This document shows, one piece after another, positions 19,677-26,987 of a stretch of DNA of 34,988 nucleotides (the first letter of the stretch is position 1; every line of letters begins with the position of its first letter). A program made the translations under genes and the position numbers. The stretch spans positions 1-34,988 of IMG/VR virus record IMGVR_UViG_3300021961_000306; one strand, given 5' to 3'. This DNA comes from a virus. The notes under the pieces are model-generated. The model was not told the origin of the DNA. It saw only the letters and a program-made list of their open reading frames with translations, and ran no database searches.

Positions 19677-19684
19677 GATAAATA
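19677..19684 (+). promoter_or_regulatory. T4-type late promoter motif (GATAAATA)
   Basis: GATAAATA lies directly after the phoH stop and 28 bases before the next start at 19712, with AAGAGGA between. The position suits late transcription, as does the NATAAATA form of late promoters in T4-like phages. The whole 19712-26987 gene run would follow from it. Confidence 0.6.
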
Positions 19685-19711: not shown

Positions 19712-21166
19712 ATGATTTTTGAAATTCAAGCTACACGATTCGATGATGGCGACAAACAAACATTTTTCTATGACAACATGGCAAACGTGTTGAAAGACTC
19801 AGCTGGTAATGTATTTGAGTTTCCTGAAGAACAACGACACAACCACGCAACAACACCATATAAATCTTTCGACAAGAATCATCCTCTTAAAAAATCTAAA
19901 TTAATAAACCATCTCAAAATTCAGATGGGTCTAAGTTGTAATTATTCTTGTGATTATTGCTCACAAAAATTTGTTGAACGCCAACCTGAAACTTCCAAAA
20001 AAGATATTGATGATTTTATGGCCAAGTTGGAAAATTTACGATTTGATGAGGATGTTGGTTTATGGGTTGAATTTTGGGGTGGTGAACCACTTGTTTATTG
20101 GAAAACATTGAAACCTTTGGCAGAAGCCATTGCAGAGAAATTTGATAGTTGGAAAACAAAACCAACTTTTAGTATTATTACAAATGGTTCCATTTTAACT
20201 GATGAAATCATTGATTGGCTGATGATGATGGATTTTGCAGTGGCAATTTCACATGATGGTCCTGGTCAATTTGTACGTGGACCTGATCCTTTTGATGATC
20301 CTGAACAAAAAGAACGTATTCTTGGATTTTATCGCATGATGACTAGACTTGGTAAACAATTCAGCTTCAATGCCATGTTGAATTCGAAGAATCAAAGTAG
20401 AAAAGAAATTTATGACTGGTTTGTAAATTTGACTGGTGATGAAAATGTAATAATTGGTGAAGGTTCTCTTGTCGATGCATACGATGAAGAAGGTATTTCA
20501 AACTCACTATTGACTAAAAAAGAACATTTTGAATTTAGGCAACGTGCATTTGGTGAATTGTATGCATCAGGTGGTAATTTAAATTTTACGTCAACATTAG
20601 GTAAAATCAATTCATTTATTAATGATGTATTGTCACACAATGAATCTAAATATTTGGGTCAGAAATGTGGAATGGATGATGAACACGTAATTGCTGTTGA
20701 CTTGCGTGGTAATGTGATGACTTGCCAAAATGTTAGTTCATTAGAAATTTCTAAAAACGGCGAACCGCACCATGGCGGTAATTTAGATGACTATTCAAAT
20801 GTTGAATTGAAATCAGTTACACATTGGTCAAATCGTAAAGAGTGTCCAGAATGTCCTGTATTACATATCTGTAAAGGTGCATGTATGTTCTTAGACGAAA
20901 AATTCTGGGATATTTCATGTGCAAATGCCTATTCTGATAATGTGGCGTCTTTTGCAGCTGCATTTACTTTGATTACACAAGGTTATGTGCCTACATTAAT
21001 CAAAGGAGAAAATTTACCACTACATAGACAAGATGTTTTTGGTACCATTTTTGAACATGAAGAAGATGAAAATCGCAAAAAAATCATACCAATCAAGGTA
21101 GTTAAGGAGATTATTGGTACCGTTGATGATGTTGCAGTGTATGGTAAATCTCGTTTGGAAACCTAA
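19712..21166 (+). CDS. Radical SAM/SPASM protein, probable peptide or protein maturase
   Basis: A 484-residue protein. The radical SAM cluster motif is C76-x3-C80-x2-C83 (SCNYSCDYC), followed by GGEP at 123-126. The C-terminal SPASM domain is complete: C319-x13-G-x4-C338, then C378-x2-C381-x5-C387-x3-C391, then C403. This seven-Cys pattern holds two auxiliary 4Fe-4S clusters in enzymes that modify peptides and proteins, such as sactipeptide maturases and anaerobic sulfatase-maturating enzymes. The next gene encodes an Asn-Cys-rich protein, an obvious candidate substrate; that link is inference from adjacency. The first 65 residues may be a recognition region. A late-promoter motif precedes it. 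Confidence 0.88.
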   Translation: MIFEIQATRFDDGDKQTFFYDNMANVLKDSAGNVFEFPEEQRHNHATTPYKSFDKNHPLKKSKLINHLKIQMGLSCNYSCDYCSQKFVERQPETSKKDIDDFMAKLENLRFDEDVGLWVEFWGGEPLVYWKTLKPLAEAIAEKFDSWKTKPTFSIITNGSILTDEIIDWLMMMDFAVAISHDGPGQFVRGPDPFDDPEQKERILGFYRMMTRLGKQFSFNAMLNSKNQSRKEIYDWFVNLTGDENVIIGEGSLVDAYDEEGISNSLLTKKEHFEFRQRAFGELYASGGNLNFTSTLGKINSFINDVLSHNESKYLGQKCGMDDEHVIAVDLRGNVMTCQNVSSLEISKNGEPHHGGNLDDYSNVELKSVTHWSNRKECPECPVLHICKGACMFLDEKFWDISCANAYSDNVASFAAAFTLITQGYVPTLIKGENLPLHRQDVFGTIFEHEEDENRKKIIPIKVVKEIIGTVDDVAVYGKSRLET

Positions 21167-21201
21167 ATATTAATAACAACATTTTATACGGATAAAGAAA
21201 A

Positions 21202-22152
21202 ATGGCAACACCAGATACAAATAGTGCAATTGGAGTATCCAACGTCAATACTGAAATAGGCCGAGGAACAGTTGCAACTGACTTGAATTTTTTAAACGGC
21301 TACCTAAAACCAAACGGCACAACACCAAAGAATGCTGGTGGCACAGTTTCAACACCCAATCCAATAAGACAAAGTAATCCACAAAATTTAGGATATTATC
21401 GAGGTGGATTAACTTACTATCAAAAAAACACTGCGGGAAATTGTCATAATACTAACAATGGTCTTGCTGATAATTGTGCAAGTGGTGACCAATCACATAA
21501 CTGTGTAGCATGTAAAAACTGTGGTGCTATTAATTGTGCTAACTGTGATACTCAAAAATGGTTGCAAGCCGGAAATTGTGAAAATGCAACAACACCAGTA
21601 TATAATTGCACTAGAACTACAAATTGTTATTTAACAAATTGTAATTGTTCTAAAATTATTTGTACTAAATTGTTTGACCTTGGTTTAATGAAGAAAGTCA
21701 TTTTTGAGGCCGACCAAGCATTTGGTGAAAGATTAATACAAACTAATCCCGACATTTACAATGGTTATCGTGCATGGGCTGAGATTGTTGTTGATTGGAT
21801 GGACGGCAAAGGTCCTAAGATGATGCCTTGGATGTCTGATGAAGAATTTAGTGCAGCTGCTAAGAAGTGGTCAATTTCATGGGCATATGATATTGCAACA
21901 CCTTGGGCAGAAGAAATGGCCTATATGATGGGTGAAAAAGAAACAGGTAGTTTGACTGGTAAAATGATGTTTGCTTTTGGTATACCAATTTGTAAAGTTG
22001 TTGGTGTATGGAAAAGATGGTTTGGACCAAGTAAGAAAGAGCCTGGATTCATTAAAGGTGCAGCACTTGTTGTAATTTTTGTTATGTTTAAACTGATTGC
22101 CGAACTAGGCCGTTTGATTGAAAGGTTCATTCCAAAGAAAAAGGTTACATGA
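21202..22152 (+). CDS. Asn-Cys-rich virion-like protein, candidate modified substrate
   Basis: A 316-residue protein in three parts. Residues 1-70 begin SAIGVSNVNTEIGRGTVATD, resembling the N-termini of phage tail-associated proteins. Residues 81-154 hold 13 cysteines (81, 92, 101, 104, 107, 112, 115, 126, 136, 142, 147, 149, 154), of which 11 directly follow Asn. Residues 160-316 form a Trp-rich domain (AWAEIVVDWMDGKGP, TPWAEEMAYMMGEKE) ending in a hydrophobic helix (GAALVVIFVMFKLIAEL) and a basic tail. I recall similar C-terminal domains in T4-like phage structural proteins, but cannot verify this. It lies between the SPASM enzyme and a run of oxygenase-like genes. Confidence 0.8.
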   Translation: MATPDTNSAIGVSNVNTEIGRGTVATDLNFLNGYLKPNGTTPKNAGGTVSTPNPIRQSNPQNLGYYRGGLTYYQKNTAGNCHNTNNGLADNCASGDQSHNCVACKNCGAINCANCDTQKWLQAGNCENATTPVYNCTRTTNCYLTNCNCSKIICTKLFDLGLMKKVIFEADQAFGERLIQTNPDIYNGYRAWAEIVVDWMDGKGPKMMPWMSDEEFSAAAKKWSISWAYDIATPWAEEMAYMMGEKETGSLTGKMMFAFGIPICKVVGVWKRWFGPSKKEPGFIKGAALVVIFVMFKLIAELGRLIERFIPKKKVT

Positions 22153-22460
22153 TGCCAACGTATTCATATCAAAGACCTGTTAAGATAACAGCAAACGGAA
22201 GAGATGAAAAATACAAAGCTGACCATTTAAAACATTTTATTAAAACTGTCATTTATCCAAATATATTATCTTTTTCAGAAGAAGATAAAGAAAAATATTT
22301 TAAATTTCATAGAGACTACGGAGTTTTATTGATGAAAATTTATGGCGACTCTGTAGAACTGTTTGGTGAAAAATATTTTCTAGCAGAAGCTTCAAAAAAT
22401 AATATAGATGATGTATTAGTTAATCAGTATAAAGAGTGGTTGGAGAAACAAGATGAGTAA
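22152..22460 (+). CDS. Small helical protein, paralogue of the 22453 gene
   Basis: Tandem ATGs lie at 22149 and 22152, overlapping the preceding stop. The product contains PNILSFSEEDKEKYFKFHRD and ends NQYKEWLEKQDE. The same two blocks occur, diverged, in the next gene (VLSLSKEDKELWFDAQIKYG and NEYKEWLNKQE), so the pair arose by duplication. Charged and soluble, with no cysteines to match its upstream neighbour. A chaperone or adaptor role is speculation. Confidence 0.75.
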   Translation: MPTYSYQRPVKITANGRDEKYKADHLKHFIKTVIYPNILSFSEEDKEKYFKFHRDYGVLLMKIYGDSVELFGEKYFLAEASKNNIDDVLVNQYKEWLEKQDE

Positions 22461-22779
22461 ATCGCAACTAACTTATTTACCGACTATTGAAGCCTCCGAT
22501 GGAAACATCATAACTTTTGAAGAAGATATCGTAAGAGATTTTTTTAATAATCAGATTAAAACCAACGTACTATCTTTGTCAAAAGAAGATAAAGAATTGT
22601 GGTTTGATGCACAAATTAAATATGGTGATATATTCCATAAAGTAATTGGATCCAACACTGCTGAAAAAATTATGGGTCCTATTGTATCTTTACAAACAGC
22701 CATAGAAAATGACTTGGAAGAAACCAAGGATGACCAACTATTAAATGAATATAAAGAGTGGTTAAATAAACAAGAGTGA
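22453..22779 (+). CDS. Small helical protein, paralogue of the 22152 gene
   Basis: A 108-residue product overlapping the preceding gene by 8 bases. It shares the SxEDKExxF block and the YKEWLxKQ C-terminus with that gene. Acidic and helical. It lies between the Asn-Cys protein and the first oxygenase gene. Function is unknown. Confidence 0.75.
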   Translation: MSKSQLTYLPTIEASDGNIITFEEDIVRDFFNNQIKTNVLSLSKEDKELWFDAQIKYGDIFHKVIGSNTAEKIMGPIVSLQTAIENDLEETKDDQLLNEYKEWLNKQE

Positions 22780-22792
22780 AAGTTTTTTTAAT

Positions 22793-23491
22793 ATGATGAC
22801 AACAAAAGAAGATAGAGATAGATACCATTGGTATCAAAATGCACAGAATATGTTTTGGCAAAGTCCAATATGGGAAGTGCAAACAAAATTTGATGAAGAA
22901 TTCAATGAAGTATTATTGGATGAAATTTATGGTATAGGTAAAGATATCGTATTGGGTAAAGACAAAGACCCGAACAATAGTATATGGGACTACAGCAGAC
23001 CCAATTTAGATATACTAAAACAAGAAATCATAGACATAGTAACCAAGAAGATTGTACAGAATATTCCTCAGTTGAGGATGTTAAACATACGTGGTTGCGA
23101 ACACTTTATGGGTTGGGTGAATGTGCGTGAACCTGGAGAACGTCTAGAGGTGCATGGACACACAGAATCGGCTATCGCAGCAACATACTACATCAAAGCT
23201 AAAGAAGGTTGTGGTGACCTTGTGGCTTTTGATTCTTCTCATTCTATTGATTGGGTGAACAATAAACTTAGTGGCAGTCCATTCATGCGTGAACGTAGGT
23301 TCAAACCAGTTGAAGGTCGCTTGATTTTTTTTCCATCTTACGTGTTGCATGGTGTTGATGAAAATAAATCCGATGACTTACGAATTTCGTTGTCCACTGA
23401 CCTGAGAAAAGTTGTCGATAAGAATGCTGCAAATACTGTCATTTTAAAATCGTGGGCTGGTCGCATGGCAAAAATTAGAGAATGGAAATAA
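22793..23491 (+). CDS. Putative 2OG-Fe(II) oxygenase
   Basis: A 232-residue protein. The C-terminal half has the double-stranded beta-helix pattern: HGHTES (H121, H123), then AATYYIKAKEGCGDLVAFD, then RLIFFPSYVLHGV (H186), then DDLRISLSTDL (R197 as 2-oxoglutarate ligand candidate). This matches the HxH...FPS-x-x-x-H-x-V...RIS layout of a phage/bacterial 2OG-Fe(II) oxygenase family. Such enzymes hydroxylate protein side chains or small molecules. The start has tandem ATGs and only a weak RBS. The gene lies in the same late cluster as the SPASM enzyme. Confidence 0.8.
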   Translation: MMTTKEDRDRYHWYQNAQNMFWQSPIWEVQTKFDEEFNEVLLDEIYGIGKDIVLGKDKDPNNSIWDYSRPNLDILKQEIIDIVTKKIVQNIPQLRMLNIRGCEHFMGWVNVREPGERLEVHGHTESAIAATYYIKAKEGCGDLVAFDSSHSIDWVNNKLSGSPFMRERRFKPVEGRLIFFPSYVLHGVDENKSDDLRISLSTDLRKVVDKNAANTVILKSWAGRMAKIREWK

Positions 23492-24668: not shown

Positions 24669-25442
24669 ATGTTTTTTGAAAAATTGAACTACACAGTAGA
24701 TATTGAAAAATTAAAACAAGAGGTGCGTGAAAGTGTTTTTACTTTAGGTGACAAAGTTGTCCAAGGTGAAGAATATGAGACACCGCAATATCATGGATTT
24801 GGTGGTTGGAGTTTATTGAGTAAAAAAGCCATATGGACAGATGGATGGGAAGCTATTCAACTTGAATCTGGTGAATCATTGGAGTCTTTTTTACCAACAC
24901 AAGAATTAATTTTCAAAGCATACAAACATTTTGACATTTCACATGGACTTGAACATGATAAACCAACCGAAGCTTATGTTGGTGAAATCAAAAAAGTTAT
25001 TGATGATTTGCGAGATTTAGGTTTTCATCCAACTAGAGCTAGGGTCACTTGTTTAAAGGCACACTCAAAGAGTCTTGTACATAGAGATGCAGATGCAACA
25101 GAGTATATGACAAGAATTCATATTCCATTGTGGACCAACAAAAAATGTGTACATATATGTGAAGGTAAAAATTTGCACATGCCCGCTGATGGTAGTGTAT
25201 GGATGCTTTGGACCAATAGATGGCATCAAATTAGAAATGATTCTGATGAAGATAGATATCACATCATTATGGACGCATATGATACAAAGAAAATTACGAA
25301 CAATATGAAATATGAAGGTGATTTTGAAATGTTTCGGGAATGGGTACGTGGCCAACGAGAACAAATTGATTCTGCGGATTTGACACAGGAAGATATTGAT
25401 TTCTTTGAAGCTATCAGAAGTAGATACTTAACCAAAAAATAA
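24669..25442 (+). CDS. Aspartyl/asparaginyl beta-hydroxylase-like protein
   Basis: A 257-residue protein with GGAAA upstream of the ATG. The Asp/Asn hydroxylase pattern is visible: H138-R-D140 (LVHRDAD), R149 in TRIHIPLW, H186 in NRWHQIRN and R196 in DRYHIIMD. These are the iron and 2-oxoglutarate ligands of the family, whose eukaryotic founder hydroxylates Asp/Asn in Cys-rich EGF-like domains. That is notable here, since the nearby 21202 protein is rich in both Asn and Cys. The substrate is inferred, not shown. Confidence 0.8.
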   Translation: MFFEKLNYTVDIEKLKQEVRESVFTLGDKVVQGEEYETPQYHGFGGWSLLSKKAIWTDGWEAIQLESGESLESFLPTQELIFKAYKHFDISHGLEHDKPTEAYVGEIKKVIDDLRDLGFHPTRARVTCLKAHSKSLVHRDADATEYMTRIHIPLWTNKKCVHICEGKNLHMPADGSVWMLWTNRWHQIRNDSDEDRYHIIMDAYDTKKITNNMKYEGDFEMFREWVRGQREQIDSADLTQEDIDFFEAIRSRYLTKK

Positions 25443-25445
25443 AAT

Positions 25446-26987
25446 ATGAGAAAAGTTGATGGTATAATTTTTACTGGTACACAAAACAGTACAACAAATA
25501 ATAGGCCAGCTGGAGCAGCCAGGTTAAGAACATTTCTTGGCCAACACAATTATGATATTGAGGTTGTGGATTTTTTTTATGAATTTACGACCGATGAACT
25601 TTGTGCTGCCTGTGATAATTTCATAGATGAAACAACTTTGTTTGTTGGAGTAAGTATCACTTTCATTTATGAAACGGATAAAATCAATAAACTTTTTAAT
25701 CATATTAAAACAAAATATCCTAAAGTAAAAAGAATTATTGGTGGTTCAGAGGGTTCGGTCGAAGGTTTAGATGGAACATTAGTTGATAGATTTATATGGG
25801 GTTATTCTGAACAAGCTGTTTTACATTATTTAAAATTTCTACAAAGAAAAAGACTTGATGATTTGAAATGGGAACCTTATCACGGTTCATACGCTATTAA
25901 TGCGGAATCATTTTATAAAAATGATGACACCGATTTGACTATTAAATGGTTGGAATCCGATTTAATCAAAACAAATTTTTTGCCAATAGAAATAAGTAGG
26001 GGTTGCATTTTTAAATGTAGATTTTGTCAATTCCCTTTATTGGGTAAGAAAAAAAGTGATTATATTAGACATGTTGATAACCTAACTGATGAAATTCGCA
26101 GAAATTATGAAATGTTTGGAGTAACAAATTATTGGTTCAATGATGATACACTCAATGATAATATTATTAAATTGGAATACATTGCTGAAGCTATTCAAAA
26201 GAGTGGAGTGAAAATAACATATAGTGCATTTTTACGAGCAGACTTAATGGCCAGATTTCCTGAAACTATTCCAATGTTAGCAGATACGGGTTTAGCCTCA
26301 GCTGTTTTTGGTATAGAAACATTACATCCATTGGCCAAAAAAATTGTTGGAAAAGGACAAGATTCAGAAAGACAGTTTGATGCCATTAGACAACTAAAAA
26401 AACTTGCTCCTATATGGACACAAACTGGAATGATTGTTGGATTACCTGAAGAACCTTTGTCTAGTATTTTTCAAACTCAGAAAACCTTTCTTGAAATGAA
26501 TGAAAATTTTGAAGTATTAAACCAGTGGTTTTGGTTTTCTTTAACACTCAGGAAAAAAGGAATGACACGTTTAAGTGAATTCGAAAGAGAACATGAAAAA
26601 TATGGTTATTCTGAAATGGATGTAAATGAATTAAAAAAAGGATATTTGAATTTAGATAGTCTTATAATACACTTTGGAAATGAAAAGACGATGTATTGGA
26701 AAAATAAATACACCAATTTTTTTCAAGCAAATTACATTGCTGAGATTTTGAACCAAGAAGTTGAAAAATTTAGATTGGAACGTGGTATGAGATACACTGA
26801 CCAACCAATAGGTGAACACAATAACGCATGGGGACATATTGCACTTTTACCACACGAACTTATTGGTTTAGGATTTACACCAAAGGAAATTGTGGAAGGA
26901 ACAATCGACAAAAAATTGTTATTTGAAAAAATGAAACAATCAAAAAATGATATTAAGAATTACAAAAAACTAAAATTAGGATTATAA
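25446..26987 (+). CDS. Radical SAM protein with N-terminal B12-binding-like domain
   Basis: A 513-residue protein. Residues 1-135 look like the Rossmann domain found at the N-terminus of B12-dependent radical SAM enzymes (LRTFLGQHNYDIEVVDFF, then RIIGGSEGSVEGL), but no clear DxHxxG cobalamin-binding motif is visible. The radical SAM motif follows: C187-x3-C191-x2-C194 (GCIFKCRFC). Downstream are FGIETLHP and TGMIVGLPEEP, typical of the TIM-barrel. Family members perform methylations, methylthiolations and ring rearrangements. The last 130 residues are family-specific. The stop shares a base with the next ATG. Confidence 0.82.
   Translation: MRKVDGIIFTGTQNSTTNNRPAGAARLRTFLGQHNYDIEVVDFFYEFTTDELCAACDNFIDETTLFVGVSITFIYETDKINKLFNHIKTKYPKVKRIIGGSEGSVEGLDGTLVDRFIWGYSEQAVLHYLKFLQRKRLDDLKWEPYHGSYAINAESFYKNDDTDLTIKWLESDLIKTNFLPIEISRGCIFKCRFCQFPLLGKKKSDYIRHVDNLTDEIRRNYEMFGVTNYWFNDDTLNDNIIKLEYIAEAIQKSGVKITYSAFLRADLMARFPETIPMLADTGLASAVFGIETLHPLAKKIVGKGQDSERQFDAIRQLKKLAPIWTQTGMIVGLPEEPLSSIFQTQKTFLEMNENFEVLNQWFWFSLTLRKKGMTRLSEFEREHEKYGYSEMDVNELKKGYLNLDSLIIHFGNEKTMYWKNKYTNFFQANYIAEILNQEVEKFRLERGMRYTDQPIGEHNNAWGHIALLPHELIGLGFTPKEIVEGTIDKKLLFEKMKQSKNDIKNYKKLKLGL

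Follow-up and report, generated by a model that had tools for sequence, protein, structure and literature searches.

The window analysed in this work comprises 34,988 nucleotides, positions 1 to 34,988 of the IMG/VR virus record IMGVR_UViG_3300021961_000306, and its rIIA, rIIB and single-strand binding protein genes identify it as a fragment of a T4-like phage. Within it, a gene whose product carries a block of Asn-Cys dipeptides (the NC protein) is clustered with the gene of a radical SAM/SPASM enzyme and with several further genes (Table 1). The two small proteins encoded behind the NC gene look alike by eye, ending in YKEWLEKQ and YKEWLNKQ, respectively, and in the clade of the window the NC genes have beside them a conserved protein that ends similarly.

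Table 1. Features of the gene cluster that contains the NC gene, in window positions
Feature	Position	Strand	Remarks
TAAATA element	19679..19684	+	precedes the gene of the enzyme
Radical SAM/SPASM enzyme, 484 aa	19712..21166	+	putative maturase of the NC block; 35 bp upstream of the NC gene
T4-type late-promoter-like TAAATA element	21164..21169	+	upstream of the NC gene; kept in relatives
NC protein, 316 aa	21202..22152	+	putative substrate; open reading frame, relatives found
Asn-Cys block, residues 81-154	21442..21663	+	13 Cys, 11 of them after Asn; predicted disordered
C-terminal helical domain, residues 151-316	21652..22149	+	also in Gly-rich and in DUF4815-type phage proteins without the NC block
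Two small proteins	22149-22460, 22453-22779	+	between the NC gene and the oxygenase gene
2OG-Fe(II) oxygenase (PF13759)	22793..23491	+	often encoded along with the enzyme
Asp/Asn beta-hydroxylase family protein (PF05118)	24669..25442	+	possible accessory
Second radical SAM protein, PhpK-/HpnJ-related	25446-26987		B12-binding domain; same cluster

An earlier note on this DNA had described the block as a cluster of cysteines most of which directly follow asparagine, and its count, its list of positions (C81, C92, C101, C107, C112, C115, C126, C136, C142, C147 and C149) and its coordinates were all exact. The exceptions are C104, which follows Ala, and C154, which follows Ile, and a single cysteine of the protein, the 14th, lies outside the block at residue 264. 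The block is rich in Asn (15 per 75 residues); when it was shuffled 200,000 times, the number of NC dipeptides had a mode of 2 and never exceeded 9, as compared with the 11 observed. The predicted model of the protein has pLDDT values below 50 over residues 68-150 despite the conservation of the block, which, as an inference from a model, is what would be expected of a segment whose structure needs modification.

Pfam and PHROG searches with the NC protein of the window, its N-terminal part included, gave no match, and a profile search of PDB sequences with the N-terminal part returned a single weak match, to a cytochrome trimer (E 1e-4). Comparison of the NC-protein model with solved structures, which effectively tested the helical domain only, revealed none at Z ≥5. 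Where the C-terminal domain occurs without an NC block, it stands behind poly-Gly (GGGGGGGKIICTKL) or, in Synechococcus phage SynMITS9220M01, behind poly-Pro, and the DUF4815-type proteins that share it are large virion-type proteins. The TAAATA element precedes 37 of 57 NC genes but only 23 of 512 other genes in the relatives. In the absence of any PHROG or Pfam match, the placement of the window protein in the virion is only indirect, resting on the C-terminal domain and on the late-promoter-like element.

The enzyme encoded upstream is recognised by the Pfam Radical_SAM model with 36.5 bits (cut-off, 29.5). The CxxxCxxC motif of the radical SAM cluster occupies residues 76-83, and the seven-Cys SPASM motif (C..GX4C, CX2CX5CX3C, C) is complete, with C319, C338, C378, C381, C387, C391 and C403, its GX4C element being G333-X4-C338; C76, C80 and C83 as well as the seven SPASM cysteines are invariant in 35 sequences. 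The AlphaFold model of the enzyme (mean pLDDT of 91) found its best match among solved structures in CteB, the SCIFF thioether maturase (Z 23.3, rmsd 3.4, 324 residues), with an alignment that starts at residue 1 of the enzyme and covers residues 1-420, including the N-terminal domain. ChlB (Z 19.7), anSME (19.1), TigE (17.7) and then SuiB came next, and EpeE matched at lower Z. None of the curated NCBIfam cut-offs was reached by the enzyme, the nearest model being that of PapB (79.7 of 340 bits), and the SCIFF model gave 52 of 425 bits. The enzyme matches PHROG 1802 (211 bits), described as a phage radical SAM domain protein without an assigned function. A role as anaerobic sulfatase maturase (anSME) was ruled out, since the nearly invariant Gln339, directly after the second SPASM Cys, aligns with the catalytic Asp277 of anSMEcpe, and since the sulfatase-type substrate motifs CxPxR and CxAxR were found in none of the 105 NC proteins searched; formylglycine formation is thus unlikely.

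Coupling of cysteine with the preceding residue

The codons of the NC dipeptides are mixed across the family (AATTGT, 175; AACTGT, 166; AACTGC, 107; AATTGC, 63), and their spacing is irregular. A hexamer repeat at the DNA level can therefore be ruled out; the earlier note had already excluded a simple tandem repeat on the irregular spacing and had pointed to the varied codons.

To describe the residue that precedes Cys, 43 NC proteins sharing less than 85% identity were used. In this set, the residue before a block Cys is Asn in 78.5% of the cases, Ala in 9.3%, Gln in 7.6% and Asp in 3%, as compared with a background of 30% Asn when all block residues other than Cys are counted. In nine alignment columns where Cys is variable, Asn stands in front in 185 of 220 cases when Cys is present and in 25 of 142 when it is absent, and single columns can be as clear-cut as 26/26 versus 0/17 or 19/21 versus 0/21. 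The Fisher value for this covariation (1e-37) overstates independence, because the sequences are related by shared ancestry and the counts are not independent events, but the pattern repeats at several separate columns. The earlier note had named homologues that keep Cys after a random residue as the finding that would refute it; the comparison was made and brought no refutation, as Asn and Cys were seen to be gained and lost as a unit. Individual positions of the block are conserved as well (37 sequences). Some Cys positions have another fixed predecessor (Gln in 32 of 41 sequences, Ala in 24 of 24), and the unit is therefore better written as X-Cys, with N much preferred over A, Q and D as X.

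Association of the tracts with the enzyme family

The gene-level association of tract and enzyme was observed in both directions. Viral contigs carrying the enzyme gave 79 loci, some of them near-duplicates, and an NC-rich protein is encoded at all 79, mostly directly adjacent to the enzyme gene; at L116-L119 and L121 it is a shorter, separate protein encoded upstream that has no C-terminal helical domain. A scan of bacteria, with one genome per species and a broader enzyme alignment, yielded 80 loci, to which two were added from phage records, and an NC tract (at least 3 NC in 30 residues) was located near the enzyme at 55 of these 82. Several other loci of this set encode [NDA]C tails, e.g. 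NCACNCDCTCC or ACDCACACDCACNC. About one third of the 82 have no strict NC tract nearby, some of them lacking upstream sequence, and at a minority of enzyme loci (e.g. those of Variovorax and Ramlibacter) no tract could be recognised.

The reverse scan searched viral contigs for the DNA pattern (AAYTGY)4 only and returned at least 120 stretches. Among the matches listed, an open frame encoding NCNCNCNC is present at 104 loci, and an enzyme of the family (>100 bits) is encoded near 72 of them, on the same strand in all 72 cases and downstream of the tract in 71; the remaining 32 have no enzyme in the stretch examined, and many of those stretches are short. Where the pattern lies outside such an open frame, no enzyme was detected near any of the 16 loci listed. 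In a control scan with (GAYTGY)4, the enzyme was absent from all 50 loci coding for DCDCDCDC, although this control is a rough one, as it is not matched in host or G+C content and contains one large family. Of the 72 enzyme-linked tracts listed, 70 have at most 6 residues between them and the end of the frame; Cys follows Asn in 477 of 569 cases, Asp in 24 and Ala in 20. Tract and enzyme also disappear together: none of 10 whole records (up to 337 kb) in which the C-terminal domain comes without an NC block and with Gly runs in its place encodes a full-length enzyme, one weak partial match of 27% apart, and 9 of 9 NC-bearing records do, at 65-86% identity. Taken together, these counts, although drawn from related sequences, strongly support, at the level of genes, the pairing of the NC tract with the enzyme, and the suggestion made from the sequence that the dipeptide is a unit for enzymatic modification has gained strong support from the 79/79 loci and from the 72/104 listed tracts as compared with 0/50 in the control. 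The enzyme family is represented in T4-like phages from freshwater, in siphophages and in prophage-like regions of Burkholderiales, Rhodobacterales and Rhodospirillales.

Other Cys-rich proteins came to light in these scans. The DCDCDCDC search revealed a conserved viral protein of ~233 aa that carries this sequence near residue 30 (MITAYKKRKRDWMISEEDPECEC...) and has no radical SAM gene nearby (L252, L258, L268, L271 and others). At L133, L139, L174, L198 and L182, short proteins show an HTHxFxDDY motif followed by a C-terminal CNCNCNCNC; several of these proteins have two or more radical SAM genes in their neighbourhood (four at L133), only one of which is close to the NC-linked family. At L386 and L392 (in a 348-aa upstream protein) and at L345:3-245, variant tails in which YCSYCSYC precedes the Cys-rich end are encoded upstream of an enzyme of this family and may represent another substrate motif; both L386 and L392 contain two tandem copies of the enzyme. 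At L210:3182-3583, a CQxC-repeat peptide is followed by NCNCNCNC beside a distant radical SAM gene (88 bits). Searches of cultured phages for more distant enzymes returned only Achromobacter phages and a human-gut phage record (L396:1-865) in which the gene of a distant radical SAM protein directly follows that of a SCIFF-like peptide; this record is useful as a positive control where substrates are judged by adjacency.

Fibre-like proteins and companion genes

Several NC proteins match PHROG tail-fibre families and collagen repeats. When ten of them were scanned for tail-fibre families, L163, L131, L168 and L200 gave matches, L128 a weak one and the other five none. The genome of Achromobacter phage JWF encodes the enzyme (45% identity) downstream of the tail genes, and two genes ahead of it encodes a fibre-like protein in which NCNCDCNCNCSC is followed immediately by a Hint domain. 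Achromobacter phage 2-1 resembles JWF in its enzyme, annotated as PHROG 1802, its fibre-like protein with an NC tract and its Hint domain. A tract followed by Hint, an order that bears on whether a modified core is released as in a RiPP, is also found at L319, L355 and L238, and the window protein has no Hint domain; the recurrence of this order suggests, as an inference, that the tract can become C-terminal through self-processing. When the NC proteins were clustered by single linkage on their N-terminal parts, at least 8 families resulted, a number that is only a lower bound because the clusters were chained through low-complexity fibre sequence. Many bacterial viruses bear such tracts, often at tail-fibre tips, beside the gene of a radical enzyme that very probably modifies them chemically.

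Outside the clade of the window, a common gene order starts with the NC fibre and continues with a protein of ~290 aa whose C-terminus is conserved, then one or two PF13759 oxygenases and the radical SAM enzyme. 2OG-Fe(II) oxygenases of this group are encoded at 51 of 80 enzyme loci in the genome set, at 66 of 79 in the set of the window clade and at 34 of 74 in the (AAYTGY)4 set, the last figure being among the matches listed; they were found at none of the 68 loci of the DCDCDCDC control and at none of the 12 loci that have the C-terminal domain without NC. Because T4-like phages often carry such oxygenases, their link with the tract is only suggestive.

Proposed modification and comparison with known systems

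We propose that the NC block is the substrate region of the phage-encoded radical SAM/SPASM enzyme located upstream, which probably introduces thioether cross-links into it, a reading to which we assign a probability of about 0.75. Phages of several groups carry (Asn-Cys)n tracts, often C-terminal and mostly on tail-fibre-like proteins; these would be exposed, and the enzyme would modify them post-translationally. Many SPASM peptide maturases join the sulphur of a Cys to a carbon of another residue. Here, the most likely course would be that, for each Cys, a hydrogen is abstracted from the residue that precedes it or lies close by, and that this carbon is bonded to the Cys sulphur, giving thioether cross-links that resemble those of sactipeptides and ranthipeptides. 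That there is one Asn for every Cys points to one-to-one linkage, and the replacement of Asn by Ala, Gln or Asp would suit a link through the alpha-carbon, although this is a guess. A floppy Cys-rich tail may in this way become a rigid, oxidation-proof tip; the neighbouring 2OG-Fe(II) oxygenases may add hydroxyl groups to this fibre, and in some phages the self-processing Hint domain could free the tract as a new C-terminus. The action of the enzyme on the tract, the thioether chemistry and a role in tip stability or host binding are all inferred, without any biochemical datum, and the direct adjacency of Asn and Cys, which differs from the spacing in known natural thioether peptides, counts against the scheme, as do the failure of PapB with Asp before Cys (PMC9413430) and the tract and enzyme loci at which the partner is missing. 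We advance only tentatively its stronger form, in which the radical SAM enzyme and the 2OG oxygenases together create repeated cross-links of a new type between adjacent Asn and Cys, as six-membered thioether rings or between the three chains of a fibre, to yield a hardened and possibly covalently trimerised receptor-binding tip.

The most serious competitor, which we regard as possible but clearly less probable than the thioether reading, keeps the enzyme acting on the tract and changes the chemistry to epimerisation of Asn or Cys, a C-C or C-N linkage, or oxidation of Cys. SPASM enzymes are chemically varied, and the close structural matches include anSME, SuiB (which forms a C-C link) and TigE, with the epimerase EpeE further down the list; however, the best match is a thioether maturase, and formylglycine is disfavoured by the Gln in place of the catalytic Asp and by the absence of CxPxR. 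It is improbable, in our judgement, that the tract is instead a metal-binding needle in which the CxC motifs of three fibre chains hold iron or zinc, in the manner of the HxH motifs that bind iron at the tip of the T4 long tail fibre, the enzyme merely helping or acting elsewhere. Alternating X-Cys at a fibre-like C-terminal end would place all cysteines on one face of an extended chain, but this explains neither the near-obligatory tie to a peptide-modifying SPASM enzyme nor the need for Asn before Cys, and (DC)4 tracts occur without such an enzyme.

Readings that dispense with the enzyme fare worse. Disulfides are frequent in extracellular virion proteins, so that a Cys-rich block could be a disulfide-knotted module that happens to neighbour a radical SAM gene through phage gene order. 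Against this, the association spans unrelated genome contexts and reappears in the reverse scan, tract and enzyme are lost together, and the Asn before Cys plays no role in a disulfide. The number of Cys, moreover, is odd in 72 and even in 59 of 131 tracts, which gives no parity signal for obligatory pairing; the disulfide scaffold offered in the earlier note has found no positive support, and we hold the knotted module to be very unlikely. Least of all can we credit a compositional accident of Asn- and Cys-rich low-complexity sequence: the block is indeed rich in Asn, at 30% of its residues other than Cys, yet the shuffling, the covariation, the mixed codons and the conserved single positions all speak against chance, which we regard as practically negligible.

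Radical SAM/SPASM enzymes are known for the maturation of small peptides and of a few enzymes, and one SPASM family appears to be reserved for the structural proteins of phages. Neither the action of phage radical SAM enzymes on fibres nor the existence of Asn-Cys tracts was found described in the open-licence literature (most subscription papers and preprints were outside the scope of the search), and the JWF literature examined does not mention its radical SAM enzyme; as far as could be found, the chemical finishing of fibre tips by a virus-encoded enzyme is undescribed. If the proposal is true, the virus itself chemically modifies its fibre tips, which sequence-based prediction of host range and of structure would miss, and (NC)n would offer a simple minimal substrate on which to study the chemistry and might serve protein engineering as an encodable cross-linker. 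The cultured Achromobacter phages JWF and 2-1 make the proposal testable now.

Among known systems, the tip of the T4 long tail fibre also presents a short alternating motif at the end of a phage fibre, but its motif consists of metal-bound His and involves no modifying enzyme. PHROG 1802 is matched by the enzyme of the window, and the enzyme of phage 2-1 is annotated to it; that family has neither an assigned substrate nor an assigned function. In the ranthipeptides of the PapB/freyrasin type (Cys-X3-Asp), whose maturase provides the nearest NCBIfam model, the partner of Cys is chemically similar to Asn; PapB tolerates directly adjacent Cys and Asp but does not process the transposed form with Asp before Cys (PMC9413430), whereas in the phage tracts Asn directly precedes Cys. 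A thioether between Cys and Asn is documented in the sactipeptide ruminococcin C, where Asn35 is the partner of Cys22 (PMC8188230), but sactipeptides are antimicrobial peptides with partners distant in sequence and no link to virions. Finally, SCIFF/CteB (ranthipeptide) maturation resembles the proposed phage system in that the gene of a Cys-rich substrate adjoins that of a radical SAM/SPASM maturase, and differs from it in that SCIFF is a short peptide with six Cys in forty-five residues, whereas the putative phage substrate is an (Asn-Cys)n motif at the end or in the middle of a protein.
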